A stretch of DNA of 35,028 bases from Verrucomicrobiota bacterium (GTDB lineage Bacteria > Verrucomicrobiota > Verrucomicrobiia > Opitutales > UBA953), in the NCBI GenBank assembly GCA_026397965.1, contig JAPLTU010000051.1, positions 12,077-47,104 on the forward strand. Direction: 5' to 3'. The position numbers were made by a program, and so were the translations under genes. The notes beneath the pieces are model-generated. The model saw only the letters and a list, made by a program, of their open reading frames with translations, had not been told where the DNA came from and searched no databases. The stretch's first letter is position 1. Every line of letters begins with the position of its first letter. Below are positions 26,655 to 35,028 of this stretch, piece after piece.

Positions 26655-29381
26655 ATGGCTGAAATCCCCAAATCTTATGACCCACAAGGCGTCGAATCCT
26701 TATGGTATGACCGTTGGTTAGCTGCCGGTTGCTTTAAGGGTAAGGTAGACTCCAAGCGCGAATCTTTCGCCGTCATGATTCCGCCTCCGAACGTCACGGG
26801 CGTGCTACATATGGGACACCTGCTCAATAACACCCTCCAAGATATTATGGTGCGTCGGGCCCGTCAGGAAGGAAAGTCCGCTTTATGGTTAGCGGGTACC
26901 GATCACGCTGGTATTGCCACGCAATCGCGGGTTGAAAAAGAGTTACGTCAAAAACAGGGTAAGACCCGTCACGATTTAGGTCGCGAAAAATTTATTGAAA
27001 CGGCTTCCGAGTGGCGAGACAAGCATGGCGGCATCATCTTAGGCCAGTTACGCAAGTTAGGCGCCTCGTGTGATTGGGATCGAACGGTGCACACGCTCGA
27101 CGACGGTTATTCGCAAGCGGTCCTGCAAGCCTTCGTCACCCTCTATGAACGTGGTTACGTCTACCGCGGAAAACGCATGGTCAATTGGTGCCCCGTTTCC
27201 CAGACCGGACTTTCAGATGAAGAAGTAATCATGAAGCCCTCGAAGGGTTCGCTCTTCCGTATGCGGTATGAAGTCGTGGAACTGCCCGGTACTTTTTTGG
27301 AAATTTCCACGACCCGTCCCGAGACCATTCCCGGAGACATGGCCATCGCCGTCCATCCGGGAGATGAACGTTATCAGCATCTGATCGGTAAGCACGTTTG
27401 GCGCCCGTTCCCTCGTGCCCCGATACCTATCGTGGGCGATAGCGCGGTCGACCCAGTCTTCGGTACCGGTGTGCTGAAGGTCACTCCCGCGCACGACCGG
27501 ACAGACTTTGATATTGGCAAACGCCACGGCCTCACCGTCCTCGATGTCATGAATCCTGACGGCACCATGAGTGCCGATGCCGGTCCGCTTGCCGGGCTCG
27601 AGCGCTTTAAGGCACGCGACGCCGCTGCAAAACTTTTAGACGAATTAGGCGCCTTGGTTAAGGTCGAGCCTTACGAAAATACCGTCGGTTATTCCGAGCG
27701 TGCAGATGTTCCAATCGAGCCCCGCTTAAGCGAACAATGGTTCATACGCTACCCGAAGATCGAAGAAGCCAAGCGGGCCGTGACGAGCGGTATCATTCGC
27801 TTCCACCCCGAACGCTGGACCAAGACCTACCTCCATTGGCTGGATAATATCCAAGACTGGTGCGTTAGCAGGCAGCTCTGGTGGGGACATCGCATCCCGG
27901 TTTGGTATCGGAAAAATTCCGACCGTAACGAGTCAATCAACCGGCACGTTTCCCTGACCCCTCCGACCGATCCGCAAAATTGGGAACAAGATGTCGACGT
28001 GCTGGATACCTGGGCATCTTCATGGCTTTGGTGTCTGGCCACGCTGGGCTGGCGCAAGCCCGGCGAGACGACCGATGAGCTGAAACATTGGTATCCGACG
28101 GGTGCCCTCGCGACGGGACCAGATATCATTTTCCTTTGGGTTGCCCGCATGATCATTGCAGGACTTGAGTTGCACGGGCCCGAAAAGAAAACGCTCACCG
28201 ACGACGACATCCGGGCCCGCATTCCTTTTAAGCGGGTTTATTTCAACGGTATCATCCGCGATAAACAGGGAAGAAAAATGTCCAAGAGCCTAGGCAACTC
28301 CCCGGAACCTCTGGATTTAATCGCGAAGTTCGGAGCCGATGGCCTGCGCTTCGGCCTCCTTTCCATCGCGCCCAAAGGGCAAGACATCCTCTTTGACGAA
28401 GATCGCGTCTCTCAAGGACGTAACTTTTGCAACAAGCTCTGGAATGCCTCCCGCTTCCGGCAGATGTCCGGTCCGATGTTCGATAACTCGTCGCTGCCTA
28501 GTATCATCACCCGGATCAAAGCGGAACATCTGGACGATGATGATTTTGCCATCTTACAAGGTTTGGCGGAACTCACGGATACGACCTCCAAGCACCTTGA
28601 AGAGCACGAGTTCACCGCTTACGCTCAAGGTCTCTACACGTTCTTCTGGGGCGACTTCTGTGATTGGTATGTCGAGGCCTCCAAGGCCCGGCTCGCGGAT
28701 CCACTCCTACGTGACACCTGCTTGGCGGTGCAAGACTTGGTGTTACGTCAATTCCTGCTCCTGCTGCATCCCGTTGCGCCTTTCATCACTGAAGAGCTCT
28801 GGCATTTACTAGGATACGGAGCCGAGAACGACTTCATCCAGCATCACCATACCGCTACGGGGGGCGACCTCTTGCGTGCGTTGCGCGATCATGCCATCAA
28901 GTTGGTGGCTTCGAAAGTTTCCGATGTCGCTCAATTACGCGAATTCGTGGCGACCATCCGCGCTCTGAAATCACAAACCAACCAAGCCACTCGCCGCGAT
29001 ACCGTGGTGACCGTGATCGCGAAAGATTCGGCCGCGCGGACGCTTATCGAAAATAATCGCGATAAGCTATACCGGATGGCTGGTTTAGCGGCTTTGGATT
29101 TTGCAACCGATGCCGGCAATCGACCTGGTATGCTTTCGGTCCTCGGTACCGTCGTACTGGAACAAAGCGGGGTGGTCGACGTCGCCGCCGAAATGCAGCG
29201 CCTCACCAAAGAATTGGAAAAAGTCGATAAAGTCGTCGCCGCTGGCGAGGCCAAGCTGACGAATGAAACCTTTGTTTCCAAGGCCCCGCCGCAGATTCTT
29301 GAAGGTGCACGCAAACAATTAGAGGAAGCCAAAGCTAAACGAGACGAGCTGTCTCGGATGTTGAAAACTATCGGCTCATAA
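26655..29381 (+). CDS. valS: Valyl-tRNA synthetase
   Basis: Charges tRNA-Val and edits mischarged threonine. The 908-residue class I synthetase has the HIGH-type motif HMGH at residues 52-55 in NVTGVLHMGH and KMSKS at 541-545 (GRKMSKSLGN). The CP1 editing domain lies between them, with STTRPETIPGD being characteristic. The tRNA anticodon-binding helical domain and the C-terminal coiled coil are present; the coiled coil runs from about residue 850 and is rich in Lys and Glu. No Shine-Dalgarno sequence precedes the ATG; TATTAA ends 8 bases upstream and may be a -10 box. The stop codon shares one base with the nagB start (TAATG), so the amino-sugar genes may be co-transcribed with it. Confidence 0.97.
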   Translation: MAEIPKSYDPQGVESLWYDRWLAAGCFKGKVDSKRESFAVMIPPPNVTGVLHMGHLLNNTLQDIMVRRARQEGKSALWLAGTDHAGIATQSRVEKELRQKQGKTRHDLGREKFIETASEWRDKHGGIILGQLRKLGASCDWDRTVHTLDDGYSQAVLQAFVTLYERGYVYRGKRMVNWCPVSQTGLSDEEVIMKPSKGSLFRMRYEVVELPGTFLEISTTRPETIPGDMAIAVHPGDERYQHLIGKHVWRPFPRAPIPIVGDSAVDPVFGTGVLKVTPAHDRTDFDIGKRHGLTVLDVMNPDGTMSADAGPLAGLERFKARDAAAKLLDELGALVKVEPYENTVGYSERADVPIEPRLSEQWFIRYPKIEEAKRAVTSGIIRFHPERWTKTYLHWLDNIQDWCVSRQLWWGHRIPVWYRKNSDRNESINRHVSLTPPTDPQNWEQDVDVLDTWASSWLWCLATLGWRKPGETTDELKHWYPTGALATGPDIIFLWVARMIIAGLELHGPEKKTLTDDDIRARIPFKRVYFNGIIRDKQGRKMSKSLGNSPEPLDLIAKFGADGLRFGLLSIAPKGQDILFDEDRVSQGRNFCNKLWNASRFRQMSGPMFDNSSLPSIITRIKAEHLDDDDFAILQGLAELTDTTSKHLEEHEFTAYAQGLYTFFWGDFCDWYVEASKARLADPLLRDTCLAVQDLVLRQFLLLLHPVAPFITEELWHLLGYGAENDFIQHHHTATGGDLLRALRDHAIKLVASKVSDVAQLREFVATIRALKSQTNQATRRDTVVTVIAKDSAARTLIENNRDKLYRMAGLAALDFATDAGNRPGMLSVLGTVVLEQSGVVDVAAEMQRLTKELEKVDKVVAAGEAKLTNETFVSKAPPQILEGARKQLEEAKAKRDELSRMLKTIGS

Positions 29382-30121
29382 TGCCTCTTATCCGTCAGCA
29401 CTCCGATAAAAAATCTGCGGCTAAAGCCGTCGCCCAAGAGATTGCTGAGTTGATTGGTTTACGCACGCTATCGGGCAAGAAAACCGTGCTCGGACTTGCG
29501 ACCGGCTCGTCGCCTTTAGCGCTTTACGCCGAGCTTATCCGGCTGCATCGCGATGAAGGTTTGAGTTTCAAGGATGTCATATCCTTCAACCTGGATGAAT
29601 ATGTCGGACTGGGCGCCGCGCATCCGCATTCTTACCGCCATTTTATGGAGCAGAACCTCTTCCGCTCGATTGATCTGCCGAAAGCGTCCACGCATATCCC
29701 TGATGGATTGAGTAAGGATTTCTCGTCCGAATGTCAGGCTTATGAGGATCGGATTAAATCGGTCGGCGGGATAGACCTCCAAATTCTGGGTATCGGCCGC
29801 ACGGGGCATATTGGTTTTAATGAGCCAACATCGGCTGAGATTTGTCGTACCCGTCACGTCACGCTTAATGCGATTACCCGGGTGGATAACGCAGGTTTCT
29901 TCGGAAGTCCGGAGTTAGTGCCAAAGGAAGCTCTCACCATGGGTGTCGGCACCATCCTCGAGGCCCGAAAAATTGCTCTGCTGGCTTTTGGTGCCGGTAA
30001 GGCGGAGATTGTCCGTCGGGCTTTCCGCGAAAAACCTAACGGCAACTGCCCCGCAACGTGGTTGCAGCTTCACCCTGATTGCACGTTCCATCTGGATGCC
30101 GCCGCCCAAAGCACACTCTAA
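29381..30121 (+). CDS. nagB: Glucosamine-6-phosphate deaminase/isomerase
   Basis: Converts glucosamine-6-phosphate to fructose-6-phosphate and ammonia, the last step of amino-sugar breakdown. The 246-residue protein is of the short, Bacillus-like type. LGLATGSSP is the phosphate-binding loop; D72 in FNLDEYVG is the conserved catalytic aspartate. GIGRTGHIGFNEP contains H143 and E148 at the E. coli positions, but residue 141, an Asp in E. coli, is Thr here. In Bacillus-type enzymes this position is also not Asp (Asn, from memory), so it is probably a natural variant and not a loss of function. VPKEALTMGVGTIL and WLQLHPD are also typical. The start overlaps the valS stop by 1 base; the next gene overlaps its 3' end by 26 bases. 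Confidence 0.95.
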   Translation: MPLIRQHSDKKSAAKAVAQEIAELIGLRTLSGKKTVLGLATGSSPLALYAELIRLHRDEGLSFKDVISFNLDEYVGLGAAHPHSYRHFMEQNLFRSIDLPKASTHIPDGLSKDFSSECQAYEDRIKSVGGIDLQILGIGRTGHIGFNEPTSAEICRTRHVTLNAITRVDNAGFFGSPELVPKEALTMGVGTILEARKIALLAFGAGKAEIVRRAFREKPNGNCPATWLQLHPDCTFHLDAAAQSTL

Positions 30122-31291
30122 GGTCAGGCTTTTGCGCCCTCCTTTGCACGTTTCGGAAATCGATCCGGAGCAGGTTCCGGCCGCATTGTGGACCCGCGAA
30201 TTCATTGCCCGATGTCAGGCGAACGCAGGTAGCTCTTCGCTGACGCTGACTTTAGCAAGGGCCGATGGCACCGCAGCGACTTTCCGCACCCTCGTCTTAC
30301 CGCTCTGCGTCGATGATTTTCAGAACTTCCTACACGTCGAAAGAACTTTTAAATTCCTGTTATGGTCCCGGGGTGGCAACCAGGTGAAAGTGGCCGGAGT
30401 TCTGGCAGATTATTTTGTCGGGAAACTTCGGGAGACCTACCGACTGGGGGGCGCGCGGTCATTTGACTGGGAGTTTCATCAAAAAATATTCGAAACGCCC
30501 ATCGCCCTCGATGCGGTCGATGAATCTGTGCTTCCTCAACCGGTCACTTCGGCTCTGACCCTAGGCCGCCATCTTGACGGCTGTCGCATTGGTTTTGATC
30601 TTGGGGGCTCTGACCGGAACTGTGCCGCCCTGATCGACGGCCAGGTCGTGTTTTTCTCGATCTCGCGGCAGAATGGAAAGTTCCTTTTGAAGTCTTGAAC
30701 GACGGTGACGTGACGGCGCTTGCCGCCTCCATGAGCTTGGGTCGTAATGCCGTCCTGGGTGTTGCCATGGGAACCAGTGTCGCCGCAGGCTACGTCGATT
30801 CGGAGGGGAAGCTGACCCATTGGTTAAGCGAACTTGCTTTTGTCCCGGTTGATTACCGGGCTGGCGGCCCTCTGGATGAGTGGTCAGGTGACCAAGGGTG
30901 CGCCGTGCAATACTTCAGCCAACAAGCCGTCGGCCGGCTGTTGCCCTTGGCCGGCATCCACCTGCCTGCCACCCTGCCTTTGCCCGAGAAGCTGGAAGAA
31001 CTCCAGTGCCTCATGGCCCAAGGCGATTTACGGGCTCATAAGGTTTATAAGACCATCGGGATCGCCCTCGGCTATACCGTCGCCCATTTCGCGAGTTTTT
31101 ACCCCATCAGCGCCCTCCTGATCATGGGACGAGTCACCACAGGTGCAGGGGGTGATCTTATCATCGCGCAAGCTCAGGGCGTACTTCGGGATGAGTTCCC
31201 AGAACTTCGTATCGACCTTATGGCACCGAATGAGAAAGATAAACGGCACGCTCAGGCTATCGCCGCTGCTTCGCTTCCACTCCTCGTATAA
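30096..31291 (+). pseudogene. ROK-family sugar kinase/regulator, broken by internal deletion and frameshift
   Basis: Two pieces of one ROK gene lie in different frames. The first (ATG 30096, stop at 30696-30698) carries a long N-terminal extension and then the ROK phosphate-1 motif GFDLGGSDRNCAALIDG before running into an abnormal tail. The second continues in the -1 frame, recognisable from about 30650 (LDLAAEWKVPFEVLNDGDVTALA), through GVAMGTSVAAGYV, DEWSGDQGCAVQYFSQQ and a typical C-terminus ending at 31291. Even if the frames were joined near 30650, only about 40 residues would separate the DLGGS and NDGD motifs; in ROK kinases such as NagK this distance is about 100. About 60 residues of the nucleotide- and sugar-binding core are therefore missing in addition to the frameshift. 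The intact form would probably phosphorylate GlcNAc or glucosamine. An assembly or read error is possible. Confidence 0.85.
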
Positions 31292-31297
31292 TTTGGA

Positions 31298-32143
31298 ATG
31301 AAACTTTCCTCACAGGCCGACGTTTTTATCCCTGATGCCCACGTCGGCCCGGAAGCCTATTCTAGAACGACCCATTTAGGTATTGGCGCCCATCAGGATG
31401 ACCTCGAGTTCATGGCATTCCACGGGATCCTCGCCTGTTATGATCAAACCGACCGATGGTTCGGGGGTGTGATCATGACGGATGGGCGCGGAAGTTCCCG
31501 TCTGGGAAAGTATCGCGATTGGACGGATGCGCAGATGGCAGCCGAGCGGATTCAGGAACAACGACGGGCGGCTACGCTCGGTCAGTATGGGTTCGTCGCT
31601 CAGCTCGGTTATGCGAGTCAAGATGTCCGGCAGTCGCAAGGGGCGGCGACCCGAGGGGACATCCTGACTATCCTGCAGGCCACTCGGCCCAAGGTGGTCT
31701 ACCTCCATAATCTTGCCGATAAGCATGATACCCATGTGGGCTGCGCCCTGCGTTGCCTCGAAGCCCTTCGTCTCCTCCCCGCCGATCAGAGACCCGTAAA
31801 AGTCTACGGCTGCGAAGTTTGGCGTGATTTGGATTGGCTGGTGGACGAGGAAAAGACCCCGATGCCCATTTCGGAGCGTCCTGAGCTCGCTCAAAAACTT
31901 AATGCGATCTTTGCCACCCAAATCGATGGAGGTAAACGCTACGACCTGGCGGTGCTTGGACGCCGTACGGCTAACGCAACTTTTAGTAACGCCCATAGTT
32001 CCGACCGCGAAACGTCAATGCAATGGGCCATGGATCTGACCCCGCTCATCAAGGACGATACTCTCGATCCACTTGCTTATGTCATTGGCTTCGTCGATCG
32101 TCTTAAGTCAGATATCGCCGCACGCATCCACCGCTCACTCTGA
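31298..32143 (+). CDS. PIG-L/LmbE-family N-acetyl sugar deacetylase
   Basis: A 281-residue zinc-dependent deacetylase of the PIG-L family, which removes acetyl groups from N-acetylglucosaminyl substrates. The metal motif AHQDDLE has H32 and D35, in the position of the usual (P/A)HPDD. H137 and H146 in HNLADKHDTHV fit the second metal-binding motif. VIMTDGRGSSR is the conserved strand-loop of the family. There is no signal peptide, so it is likely cytoplasmic. It lies 6 bases after the ROK remnant and 6 bases before the nucleotidyltransferase gene. Next to nagB it could replace NagA by deacetylating GlcNAc or GlcNAc-6-phosphate; in Bacteroidetes a PIG-L domain is fused to NagB, which supports this link. 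Confidence 0.88.
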   Translation: MKLSSQADVFIPDAHVGPEAYSRTTHLGIGAHQDDLEFMAFHGILACYDQTDRWFGGVIMTDGRGSSRLGKYRDWTDAQMAAERIQEQRRAATLGQYGFVAQLGYASQDVRQSQGAATRGDILTILQATRPKVVYLHNLADKHDTHVGCALRCLEALRLLPADQRPVKVYGCEVWRDLDWLVDEEKTPMPISERPELAQKLNAIFATQIDGGKRYDLAVLGRRTANATFSNAHSSDRETSMQWAMDLTPLIKDDTLDPLAYVIGFVDRLKSDIAARIHRSL

Positions 32144-32149
32144 AAATAT

Positions 32150-33055
32150 ATGAAACCCACCCTCCTTGTTCTCGCTGCCGGTATGGGAAGTCGCTACGGC
32201 GGCCTTAAACAGATCGACCCCATGGGCCCTTCGGGCGAGACTATCCTGGACTATTCGGTCTATGATGCCATTCGTGCCGGCTTCGGTAAGGTCGTGTTCA
32301 TCATCCGACCCGACTTTGAGAAAGACTTCCAAGAGCGCATCGTCCAGAAGTTTGCCGACAAGATTGAGGTCGGTTTCGCTTTCCAAACCTTAGATTGTTT
32401 ACCCGCCGATTTTAAGATTCCTGAGGGCCGAGAGAAACCGTGGGGTACGACCCATGCGATTTTGTGTGCGCGTGCTAACGTTCAGACCCCCTTCGCCGTG
32501 ATCAACGCTGACGATTTTTATGGCCGAGACTCTTACGCCGTATTGAGCGAACAACTCAAAAATCTGAGCAACGAGTCCACCGCCTATTGCATGGTCGGCT
32601 TTACCTTGAAGAACACCCTTTCCGAGCATGGGACGGTAGCGCGCGGCGTCTGCAAGGCGGATGCGCAAGGCCTGCTCACGGATATCGACGAGATGACCAA
32701 GATCGCCAAGACCCCGCTGGGCGGCACAAATACTGCGGCGGACGGCAAGGTGACGGAGTTATCTGGCAACGAACCCGTTTCGATGAATATGTGGGGCTTC
32801 ACCCCGCACATCTTTAAACAACTTGAGGTACTCTTTGACGAATTCCTTGCGACTAAAGGGCAAGAGTTGAAGAGCGAATGTTATATCCCGCTTTCGGTCG
32901 GCAGCTTGGTCAGATCTGGCCAAGCGACCTGTCTGGTCCTGCGGACGGATTCCACCTGGTTCGGCGTGACTTATCGCGAAGATAAAGCCGTCGTTCAGGC
33001 GAGTATTATTGAAGAGGTTAAGCGCGGCGCTTACCCGGAGAATCTCTGGGCGTAG
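32150..33055 (+). CDS. Sugar-1-phosphate nucleotidyltransferase (NTP_transferase family)
   Basis: A 301-residue nucleotidyltransferase that would couple a sugar-1-phosphate to an NTP. The signature LAAGMGSRYGGLKQ (residues 8-21) matches the GXGXR...K pattern of the fold, with PMGPSGETILDY following. NADD (119-122) supplies the metal-binding aspartate. WGTTHAILCARA, before it, is the base-recognition segment. The sugar and nucleotide cannot be read directly. The adjacent NahK-like kinase and NAD-dependent epimerase suggest a hexosamine-1-phosphate and UTP, by analogy only. It is 6 bases after the PIG-L gene and 13 bases before the kinase gene. No hexapeptide-repeat acetyltransferase domain, as in GlmU, is attached. 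Confidence 0.87.
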   Translation: MKPTLLVLAAGMGSRYGGLKQIDPMGPSGETILDYSVYDAIRAGFGKVVFIIRPDFEKDFQERIVQKFADKIEVGFAFQTLDCLPADFKIPEGREKPWGTTHAILCARANVQTPFAVINADDFYGRDSYAVLSEQLKNLSNESTAYCMVGFTLKNTLSEHGTVARGVCKADAQGLLTDIDEMTKIAKTPLGGTNTAADGKVTELSGNEPVSMNMWGFTPHIFKQLEVLFDEFLATKGQELKSECYIPLSVGSLVRSGQATCLVLRTDSTWFGVTYREDKAVVQASIIEEVKRGAYPENLWA

Positions 33056-33068
33056 AGCTTTCCATGCC

Positions 33069-34184
33069 GTGACCAACCATCCTCACACCACGGCAGCACA
33101 GGCCTTTAAACTTCCCGGGGGGTTGATTTCGGCCGTGCCCTACGGCAGTGGGCATATTAATGATACCTATGCGCTGGAAGTCGCCGTTTCTGGTAAAGTC
33201 GTGCGGTATATCCTCCAGCGGATTAATCAGCAGGTTTTCAAAGCTCCGGATGCCTTGATGGAGAACGTGGAGCGGGTCTGTTACCACACGCAGCAGAAAC
33301 TGGCCTCACAAGGCGTGCCAGATGCTTTTCGCCGGGCCCTTCGGCTCGTCCCGACCCGGCAAGGACGGAACTGGCATACCGATGACGTCGGCCATCGTTG
33401 GCGCTGTTATAACTTTATCGAAAATGCGACCGGTCACGACGTCGTCAGCTCCCCGCGCCAAGCTTATGCCGCGGCGCGTGCCTTTGGCTCGTTCCAAGCC
33501 CTCTTGGCTGACTTACCGGGAAAAAGGCTCCATGAAACCATCCCCTATTTCCATCACACCCCGACGCGTTTGGCCAACTTCAAATTGGCCCTGAAGAGCG
33601 ACCCCCATGGCCGGGCGAAGTCTGCTGAAAAAGAAATCCAGTTCGCCCTGCAAAACGCACACCTCGCTTCCGTGATCACCGGGGCGCTCGCCCGCCACGA
33701 AATCCCCGAGCGCGTGACGCACAATGATACTAAGCTTAATAATGTCCTGCTCGACAACGTTTCCCAGGAAGGGATTTGCGTCATTGATCTGGATACGGTG
33801 ATGCCCGGCTCGGTCCTCTACGATTTCGGCGACCTTGTGCGCACGTCGACCTCGCCGGCAGCCGAAGACGAGGTCGACCTGAATAAAATTGTCATGCAAC
33901 TCCCCCTGTTCACCGCACTGATCGAGGGTTACCTTTCCTCGGCTAAGGGGTTCCTGACACCGCGGGAGCTCGCGCTCCTCCCGGAGGCTGGCCAGGTCAT
34001 CACTTATGAGATTGGGTTACGTTTTCTGACCGACTGGCTCGAGGGTGATGTGTATTTTAAATGCAAGCGTCCGACCCATAATCTGGATAGAGCCCGGGCG
34101 CAGTTCAAACTCGTGGCATCAATCACGGCGCAGTTGCCTGCGATGCACCCAATCCTAAACCAACTCTCTTCATGCGCGTTTTGA
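33069..34184 (+). CDS. NahK-like N-acetylhexosamine 1-kinase (APH-fold)
   Basis: A 371-residue kinase of the aminoglycoside phosphotransferase/choline kinase fold, most like the Bifidobacterium N-acetylhexosamine 1-kinase NahK (LnpB), which makes GlcNAc-1-P or GalNAc-1-P. The catalytic loop reads THNDTKLNNVLLD with D220 as the likely base and N225 downstream; the metal-binding part is VIDLDTVMPG with D240 and D242, both very close to NahK. The N-terminal YGSGHINDTYAL segment forms the glycine-rich strand region, followed by YILQRINQQVF. The GTG at 33069 is chosen; an upstream ATG at 33009 would place the start inside the nucleotidyltransferase gene and add a basic, non-homologous segment. The epimerase gene overlaps its end by 13 bases. 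Alternative: another sugar-1-kinase of this fold. Confidence 0.85.
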   Translation: MTNHPHTTAAQAFKLPGGLISAVPYGSGHINDTYALEVAVSGKVVRYILQRINQQVFKAPDALMENVERVCYHTQQKLASQGVPDAFRRALRLVPTRQGRNWHTDDVGHRWRCYNFIENATGHDVVSSPRQAYAAARAFGSFQALLADLPGKRLHETIPYFHHTPTRLANFKLALKSDPHGRAKSAEKEIQFALQNAHLASVITGALARHEIPERVTHNDTKLNNVLLDNVSQEGICVIDLDTVMPGSVLYDFGDLVRTSTSPAAEDEVDLNKIVMQLPLFTALIEGYLSSAKGFLTPRELALLPEAGQVITYEIGLRFLTDWLEGDVYFKCKRPTHNLDRARAQFKLVASITAQLPAMHPILNQLSSCAF

Positions 34185-35028
34185 TTACCGGCGGAGCGGG
34201 TTTTATCGGCTCACATCTGGCCCGACATTTTCAAGGCAAGGCTGAGGTGGTCGTCCTCGATAATTTCCGGACTGGCCACGTCAGAAACCTGGACGGTATC
34301 GATTGTAACTTGATCGAAGGATCAATCCTTGACCACGTACGTGTCGCGGAGGCTATGCGGGGCGTGGATCAAGTCTTCCACCTGGCCGCCTTGGTCTCAG
34401 TCCCTGAATCAGTCTGCAATCCCGCTGAGACCGAACAGCTCAACGTGCAAGGAACGTTGAATATTCTGGAAGCCGCTACACGTAACGGGGTCAAGAAAGT
34501 CGTCTTAGCCTCTTCGGCGGCTATCTATGGCAACAACCCAATTGTTCCTAAGCTCGAAACGATGACGCCAGAGCCACAGTCGCCTTATGCCTTTACGAAG
34601 TTATCCGGTGAACACCTGTTGGAGACTTTCCATCAAAGCCATGGACTTTCGACGACGAGCCTCCGATTTTTCAATGTTTTTGGACCGCGACAAAATCCCC
34701 AATCGGCCTATGCGGCAGCCGTCCCCATTTTCATCACCCAAGCCCTGCGGGGTGAACCGCTGATCATTTTTGGAGACGGTCAGCAAACCCGTGATTTCAT
34801 CTACGTCCAAGACATCGCCCAGGCTCTGGCTTATGTCGCTCATCGGGAAGCTGTCACCGGGACCTATAATGTGGGATATGGCCAGGGGTTGAGTGTCTTG
34901 AGCCTGGCGACAAAAATAATCGCCCTAACGAAATCTAAATCCACCATCGAATATCGCCCGGGGCGGGCGGGTGACGTGAAGGCTTCGGTAGCCTCCACGG
35001 AGAAACTTCAATCTGCCGGGTGGAAGGC
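34172..35028 (+). CDS. NAD-dependent sugar-nucleotide epimerase (SDR/GalE-like), 3' end outside window
   Basis: The frame is open from the ATG at 34172 to the window end (285 complete codons), so the C-terminus is missing. GGAGFIG (residues 7-13) is the extended-SDR NAD-binding motif, SSAAIYG (114-120) provides the catalytic serine region, and Y139 and K143 in SPYAFTK are the catalytic pair. RFFNVFGPRQNP and GDGQQTRDFIYVQD are typical of UDP-glucose or UDP-N-acetylglucosamine 4-epimerases of the WbpP/Gne type. Its overlap with the NahK-like gene by 13 bases and the adjacent nucleotidyltransferase suggest it interconverts UDP-GlcNAc and UDP-GalNAc, or a related pair; a dehydratase or UDP-glucuronate epimerase cannot be fully excluded. 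Confidence 0.9.
   Translation, partial: MRVLITGGAGFIGSHLARHFQGKAEVVVLDNFRTGHVRNLDGIDCNLIEGSILDHVRVAEAMRGVDQVFHLAALVSVPESVCNPAETEQLNVQGTLNILEAATRNGVKKVVLASSAAIYGNNPIVPKLETMTPEPQSPYAFTKLSGEHLLETFHQSHGLSTTSLRFFNVFGPRQNPQSAYAAAVPIFITQALRGEPLIIFGDGQQTRDFIYVQDIAQALAYVAHREAVTGTYNVGYGQGLSVLSLATKIIALTKSKSTIEYRPGRAGDVKASVASTEKLQSAGWK

Follow-up and report, generated by a model that had tools for sequence, protein, structure and literature searches.

A NahK-linked nucleotidyltransferase of the 3pnn/GalY family in a putative amino-sugar operon of Verrucomicrobiota

Introduction

AmgK and MurU are, respectively, an anomeric kinase for N-acetylmuramic acid (MurNAc) or N-acetylglucosamine (GlcNAc) and a MurNAc-1-phosphate uridylyltransferase, while the lnp operon of Bifidobacterium encodes an N-acetylhexosamine (HexNAc) 1-kinase, NahK, along with a class II GalT, a GalE epimerase and a GH112 phosphorylase. 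An NTP_transferase-family gene has also been proposed in print to take the place of GalT, for galactose: Ravcheev and Thiele (2017) gave the PF00483 protein Amuc_0031 the name 'galY' and predicted it to be a GalT replacement, reporting that its orthologues cluster with galE (15 genomes) and with galMP (two genomes), and a phyletic pattern that runs against that of galT (PMC5583593). Here we describe a locus with features of each of these systems, at the right end of a 35,028-nucleotide stretch of DNA from a Verrucomicrobiota bacterium (hereafter the window), where genes for a nucleotidyltransferase (hereafter NTP), a NahK-like kinase and a putative epimerase follow one another on the plus strand. 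Within the 2.18 Mb, 96.5% complete genome (G000), the window occupies the right-hand end of contig C13, which is 47,104 bases long.

We consider it probable, at roughly 60%, that this NTP-NahK-epimerase triad is an amino-sugar activation module. In such a module NahK would phosphorylate GlcNAc or N-acetylgalactosamine (GalNAc) at C1, NTP would join the resulting HexNAc-1-phosphate and uridine triphosphate (UTP) into uridine diphosphate (UDP)-HexNAc and pyrophosphate, and the epimerase would interconvert UDP-GlcNAc and UDP-GalNAc, with substrates and directions as suggested by homology and gene context. The PIG-L deacetylase, ROK-like kinase and NagB encoded upstream plausibly represent a breakdown branch leading to fructose-6-phosphate, and the association of these genes with a biosynthetic triad suggests an operon at the junction of building and burning amino sugars. 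What would be new in this scheme is a NahK-based HexNAc salvage that relies on a UTP-dependent uridylyltransferase from an uncharacterised family.

Organization of the locus and proposed pathway

Three plus-strand open reading frames (ORFs), for NTP, the kinase and the epimerase, were confirmed where the first-pass annotation had read a NahK-like kinase adjoining a GalE/WbpP-like epimerase, and they close a densely packed run composed of valS, nagB, a ROK-like gene, a PIG-L gene and the triad (Table 1). The kinase ORF extends over 33009-34184, with a probable GTG start at 33069, and the epimerase gene overlaps the kinase gene by 13 bases. This gene order is the same in all ten same-genus loci read and in an eleventh genome (G156; 99% complete, 8 contigs), and a locus of Verrucomicrobia bacterium WB6_2B_028 (L072) displays the order ROK-PIG-L-NTP-NahK-epimerase at 64-74% identity.

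NTP matches the Protein Data Bank (PDB) entry 3pnn over its full length (E 6.8e-103, 55% identity), and its AlphaFold2 model (mean pLDDT 90.9) superposes on 3pnn with a Z of 41.9 and a root-mean-square deviation of 1.6 across 297 residues. Against PF00483 it scores 20.9, slightly below the gathering score of 21.2. The same family as the window protein along the whole length, 3pnn is a structural genomics entry from Porphyromonas gingivalis whose names, 'conserved domain protein' and 'glycosyltransferase', give no function (PDB). Papers containing '3PNN' do not, by their titles, concern a protein structure, and among the papers listed by our literature searches on NahK, GalY, Akkermansia and AmgK/MurU we saw no characterisation of the 3pnn/GalY family; the operon would provide a testable function for this crystal structure. 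The suggestion that an NTP_transferase-fold enzyme replaces the GalT-type one is in line with this match, as is, given the NahK-type kinase and the pocket signature of the epimerase described below, a direct route from the sugar 1-phosphate to UDP-hexosamine.

The first-pass annotation had further cast the locus as a variant of the lacto-N-biose-type pathway and proposed looking for a GH112 gene beyond the right edge. A NahK-type kinase and a 4-epimerase competent for UDP-HexNAc are indeed elements in common with the lnp operon (PMC8106489), but the window would use an NTP_transferase-fold enzyme and UTP instead of GalT, its epimerase is group 3-like whereas that of lnp belongs to group 2, and a search of the 96.5% complete genome with LBP_M (PF17385), the one GH112 domain model used, gave 0 matches. 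No GalT-family match was found among the ORFs scanned from nagB to the contig end, the rest of the genome not having been searched for GalT. The contig terminates at the last base of the window, so that the assembly holds no sequence beyond the right edge; in eight of 11 relatives the next ORF after the epimerase is on the opposite strand, and in the other three the overlap filter left no clear neighbour. Given that there is no LBP_M match and that, by eye, no phosphorylase was seen at the operon end in relatives, we rejected the GH112 link, and a Bifidobacterium-type salvage of lacto-N-biose or galacto-N-biose with a non-homologous uridylyltransferase appears highly improbable; nagB, the ROK-like gene and the PIG-L gene point instead to an amino-sugar junction.

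The kinase and its linkage to the nucleotidyltransferase

The closest PDB match of the window kinase is NahK of B. longum (4wh1; E 3.3e-83, residues 13-358 of 374). Nine positions that we take to be the catalytic and ligand-binding motif of NahK, in the numbering we assume for them, are all retained (H31, D208, K210, N213, D228, D230, R306, Y317 and one further His), and based on this resemblance the kinase would act on GlcNAc or GalNAc. Asn stands at the position of H31 in six of 40 kinase rows, namely those of L062, L063, L113 and the three copies read of a second NahK paralogue in the genus. This paralogue (~36-39% identity) was detected in 31 of 37 genus genomes, in one of them as a fragment.

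Of the 35 genus genomes that bear NTP, 32 have NahK as the direct 3' neighbour of NTP, with both genes sharing contig and strand; in one of the remaining three (G031) both genes are fragments located on different contigs. Across the order NTP was found in 53 of 57 genomes, including all 29 near-complete ones. To look further afield we read 80 named loci, which are the best-scoring of at least 585 relatives and not a random sample. NahK is directly 3' of NTP in 17 of these, a lower bound for the set since the sequence of two NahK-less loci stops no more than 700 bases from NTP, and is found ~2.6 kb away in two more. By title or classification, the 17 loci belong to Verrucomicrobia, Lentisphaerae, Acidobacteria or Bacteroidetes, with L085 as the weakest kinase match (28% identity). 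In an NTP tree of 103 rows, Opitutaceae and Puniceicoccaceae rows fall together with members of the window's order, which is therefore probably Opitutales. On this tree NahK adjacency requires 11 changes, at least five of them forced by well-supported branches, and still requires 11 once four doubtful loci, whose flanks are short or whose NahK is distant, have been removed. This indicates that the coupling between NTP and NahK has been gained or lost repeatedly. In a Rhodocytophaga locus (L140), a 642-aa ORF directly upstream of NTP has a NagB-like N-terminal part and is perhaps the fused NagB/PIG-L-like protein of NF002557, which would represent a further tie between NTP and amino-sugar genes.

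Epimerase pockets and the substrate of the nucleotidyltransferase

The last ORF of the window encodes a short-chain dehydrogenase/reductase (SDR) of the GalE superfamily, cut by the contig end, which scores 191.8 against TIGR01179 (galE), below the cut-off of 262.3. The SDR triad S124-Y149-K153 is present in this protein and in 15 close homologues, and all 16 aligned sequences have Ser in the column of E. coli GalE Tyr299 and Ala in that of Asn199; one of the 16 (G040) has no NahK neighbour. The G156 orthologue has as its best PDB match 6wjb, which we take to be a UDP-GlcNAc C4-epimerase. In the classification of these enzymes, the C5 pocket of groups 2 and 3 is described as holding Cys or Ser, while WbpP, of group 3, is described as specific for UDP-GlcNAc/GalNAc with Ala209 in the C2 pocket (PMC6668579). 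The Ser and Ala pockets of the window protein fit this group 3 signature, and it is thus most readily interpreted as a group 3-like, UDP-GlcNAc/GalNAc 4-epimerase.

Elsewhere, NTP has neighbours of a different kind. In NahK-less loci titled as members of Bacteroidota, all 12 distant SDRs adjoining NTP (~29-33% identity) carry Asn with Val or Ile, the UDP-Glc/Gal type, and the one of these that was scanned (L105) scores 391.9 against the galE model, above its cut-off. Loci in which NahK is present and a close SDR comes next thus have an epimerase of HexNAc type. This contrast in pockets supports HexNAc for the window operon and galactose, as published, for the 12 other loci, and because of these GalE-type neighbours we rejected the notion that NTP uses HexNAc in all lineages. 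With a NahK partner and a HexNAc-type epimerase here, and a galactose-type GalE elsewhere, the window NTP is most likely a HexNAc-1-phosphate uridylyltransferase, and the substrate of the family may differ by lineage. The distinction between HexNAc-type and galactose-type epimerase neighbours offers a clean prediction of such differences.

Several observations weigh against the interpretation of the triad as an amino-sugar module. The GalE-type neighbours just described suggest that NTP may well serve galactose elsewhere, and the ORFs 3' of NTP in Petrimonas (L117) resemble, by eye, galM and a sugar transporter, in agreement with the galMP clustering noted in the galY paper (PMC5583593). By sequence GalU is the nearest characterised family: 13 GalU chains follow 3pnn in the PDB search, and hhalign gave a 141-column match to E. 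coli GalU at 90% probability, compared to 12% and 47 columns only for E. coli GlmU, while the best GlmU model score was 15.2 bits, with Arch_glmU at 24. The linkage to NahK also has its exceptions, as two genus genomes (G017 and G030) carry NTP without a NahK orthologue, NTP occurs in 18 of the 20 genomes from other genera of the order with NahK adjoining it in none, 61 of the 80 named loci show no NahK within the stretch read, and L113, whose kinase is linked to NTP, is among those without the conserved His. In addition, the breakdown branch through PIG-L, ROK-like kinase and NagB is an inference, and the window's copy of the ROK-like gene is disrupted. UDP-GlcNAc could also be produced by a MurU-AmgK-like fusion protein that the genus encodes (see below). 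The fold of NTP was of no use as a guide to its substrate, because GalU, RmlA and GlmU tie at Z ~21-22 within the range of 20.9-22.7 covered by the other structures shown.

These observations bear on two other views of NTP. In the first, the protein is a broad or lineage-tuned UDP-sugar pyrophosphorylase, which would use Gal-1-phosphate or Glc-1-phosphate near GalE, in Bacteroidota-type loci, and HexNAc-1-phosphate near NahK and a group 3 epimerase. The type of epimerase does follow context (HexNAc-type in 16/16 close homologues versus Glc/Gal-type in 12/12 distant ones), none of the PF00483 proteins that we named for the genus was recognised as a GalU, and NTP is GalU-like in sequence; the breadth of substrates is however conjecture, and the fold comparison does not separate GalU, RmlA and GlmU. 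This view overlaps with the one we prefer, and we regard it as a serious contender with a somewhat less than even chance. In the second, NTP is GalY as published, uses only Gal-1-phosphate or Glc-1-phosphate, and is accompanied by a kinase and an epimerase that serve galactose. While the phyletic and clustering evidence cited above (PMC5583593), the GalE-type neighbours in 12 loci and the galM-like ORF in Petrimonas are all consistent with this, the kinase is NahK-like and not a GalK, and the epimerase pocket is of group 3, both in the window operon and in the Akkermansia-size genome described below, so that we consider an exclusive role in galactose metabolism improbable.

UDP-GlcNAc synthesis in the genus

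Wall-making bacteria require UDP-GlcNAc, and to our knowledge GlmU and UAP1 are the two kinds of enzyme that complete its synthesis. MurA was above cut-off in all 11 genus genomes tested, and LpxA and LpxC were so in the window genome, indicating that the genus needs this precursor. At the thresholds used, the genus showed no recognisable GlmU or UAP1/AGX1, the enzymes that catalyse the reaction proposed here for NTP: GlmU (TIGR01173) and alt-GlmU (TIGR03991) were each above cut-off in none of the 57 genomes of the order, and UAP1-type PF01704 (UDPGP) had no match in any of the 37 genus genomes. PF01704 matches were found in 19 of the 20 genomes from other genera of the order (long in 17), and the one protein tested from these (L047) is AGX1/UAP1-like (E 3.5e-77). 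Since NTP and a PF01704 gene coexist in most other genera, we rejected NTP as a plain UAP1 replacement across the order. ORFs of 1,118-1,165 aa with a short partial UDPGP match (~160-288) were also observed in G039, G054 and G056.

At the scale of the phylum, PF01704 is present in 97 of 115 genomes, and the genus members G000 and G156 are among the 18 without it. GlmU was above cut-off (E up to 1e-20) in none of 19 genomes, composed of these 18 and one with only a weak PF01704 match, and joint lack of GlmU and UAP1 at these thresholds is therefore not unique to the genus. Three of the 19 (G096, G108 and G126) have a separate ORF resembling the GlmU N-domain.

A cluster of glmM, a split acetyltransferase gene and glmS was read in G000, G018 and G156. 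The ~300-residue protein encoded between GlmM and GlmS resembles archaeal GlmU in the acetyltransferase half alone, the match starting at model position 195 (G000) or 212 (G018) and running to 393; its first 92 residues lie outside the best family match. With GlmS, GlmM and the split acetyltransferase in place and no GlmU uridylyltransferase domain or UAP1 recognised, the same NTP that would activate salvaged HexNAc may also complete the de novo route to UDP-GlcNAc in the genus.

To identify other candidates for this step, PF00483 proteins were listed for 11 genus genomes, the members in several genomes being placed by length and match only. The lists for five of these genomes (G001, G010, G022, G033 and G036) contain only a GlgC-like gene, the MurU-AmgK-like fusion and NTP, with the NTP of G010 taken from the order-wide search for NTP. 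GlgC was confirmed in G000, G010 and G156, and RmlA in G156, with a fragment in G000; the extra members in G018 and G032 are glucose-1-phosphate cytidylyltransferases, and G018 also has a MurU-like protein below cut-off. With no GlmU, UAP1 or GalU recognised, either NTP or the fusion is likely to be the GlcNAc-1-phosphate uridylyltransferase, unless this role falls to an unrecognised family or to RmlA.

The fusion protein, which has NTP_transferase and aminoglycoside phosphotransferase (APH) domains, scores 103 bits as MurU-like and is encoded as one ORF of 510-580 aa in all nine genus genomes searched. Like AmgK-MurU, the window pair comprises an APH-fold anomeric kinase and an NTP_transferase-fold uridylyltransferase, but the window proteins are nearest to NahK and 3pnn, and the MurU-AmgK-like fusion is a separate gene of the same genome. 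If the fusion makes the UDP-GlcNAc of the genus, the window operon would be an accessory route for salvage or decoration. In favor of this possibility, five of 11 other PF01704-less genomes have both pieces within open frames of a single length (627-730 aa), as against none of 18 further members of the order, among which 17 have PF01704, although this comparison ignores kinship and leaves out PF01704-bearing genomes of the class and phylum. Separate MurU-like and AmgK-like pieces are nonetheless found near each other in the PF01704-bearing G037, G040 and G054, as expected for MurNAc recycling, and every named family score of the fusion is far below cut-off. Between NTP and the fusion, gene context favors NTP, and we consider UDP-GlcNAc synthesis by the fusion somewhat unlikely.

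A more far-reaching proposal is that neither of the known kinds of UDP-GlcNAc pyrophosphorylase has survived in the genus, that a third kind, of the 3pnn/GalY family and co-encoded with NahK, makes its wall and lipid A precursor, and that the triad is also the basis of the GlcNAc shortcut and GalNAc use in Akkermansia muciniphila, where 'galY' would be a HexNAc-1-phosphate uridylyltransferase. A third kind of UDP-GlcNAc pyrophosphorylase would, if true, be a core finding; for now we regard the combined proposal as tentative and rather doubtful.

GalY and the proposed GlcNAc shortcut of Akkermansia

One single-contig genome in our collection (G167; 2,664,102 bases), which has the size of A. muciniphila BAA-835, carries epimerase, NahK and NTP genes side by side, with 57%, 54% and 54% identity, respectively, to the window proteins. 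Its NTP scores above the PF00483 gathering score, lies beside a GalE-superfamily gene, and by a rough count is ORF 31 from the contig start, or ORF 29 when numbering begins with dnaA. From this place and family, we infer that it is Amuc_0031, which would very probably make the published GalY homologous to the window NTP and likely orthologous to it. The published prediction for GalY is Gal-1-phosphate, whereas the NahK neighbour and the group 3 epimerase pocket, in G167 as in the window operon, suggest HexNAc.

Van der Ark et al. (2018) showed that A. muciniphila, which lacks GlmS, depends on GlcNAc or GalNAc in defined medium, and they proposed a direct GlcNAc shortcut (PMC5902328). No kinase is named for this shortcut in their main text, where the word 'kinase' occurs 0 times, and the epimerase step for GalNAc is assigned to Amuc_1125 (PMC5902328). 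An NTP-NahK-epimerase operon fits the gap left in this shortcut, and with candidates for the kinase, uridylyltransferase and epimerase encoded side by side the question becomes directly testable.

Neighbouring genes

Table 1. Features of the window and of related loci. Positions without a prefix are those of the window; G, C and L handles denote genomes, contigs and loci.
Feature	Position	Strand	Evidence
valS, upstream neighbour	26655..29381	+	ORF; synteny in 10/10 genus loci
nagB, glucosamine-6-phosphate deaminase	29381..30121	+	TIGR00502, 250.2 bits (cut-off 236.9)
ROK-like sugar kinase gene, disrupted in the window	30122..31291	+	Alignment with G028 and G024
PIG-L/LmbE family deacetylase	31298..32143	+	PF02585, 46.8 bits
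NTP, 3pnn-family sugar-1-phosphate nucleotidyltransferase, probable HexNAc-1-phosphate uridylyltransferase, 301 aa	32150..33055	+	3pnn match
NahK-like N-acetylhexosamine 1-kinase (APH fold)	33069..34184	+	Match to B. longum NahK
Putative UDP-HexNAc 4-epimerase (SDR; group 3-like pocket), cut by contig end	34172..35028	+	Pocket residues
ORF of 163 aa	25942-26433		
MurU-AmgK-like fusion	L053:2180-3703 (G000:C15:26679-28202)		NTP_transferase and APH domains
Probable fused relatives outside the genus (G063, G110, G113, G119, G125)			
glmM, split acetyltransferase, glmS cluster of G000	L054:297-4414 (C38)		
Second NahK paralogue	L057:8549-9766 (G000:C39:50548-51630)		
Epimerase-NahK-NTP of G167	37,309-40,277 (NTP at C1:39369-40277)		
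SDR adjoining NTP in L105	L105:8934-9956		galE model
Rhodocytophaga ORF of 642 aa	L140:5229-7154		

Between the lipoamide dehydrogenase gene and valS lies a 163-aa ORF without a Pfam or NCBIfam match, which has counterparts in the two nearest relatives (91% and 85%) and none in the other eight genus loci read. The start of nagB overlaps the valS stop codon by one base. No PDB sequence match was obtained at E 0.1 for the PIG-L deacetylase, nor for the ROK-like protein of G156, whose match to the ROK family is itself below threshold (E 0.0039). Compared to its counterparts in G028 and G024, the ROK-like gene of the window displays an internal deletion of ~220 bases and a frameshift near 30652, and this break may be either real or an assembly fault. 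The G024 copy contains runs of N, and the gene is one open frame in nine of the ten genus loci read.

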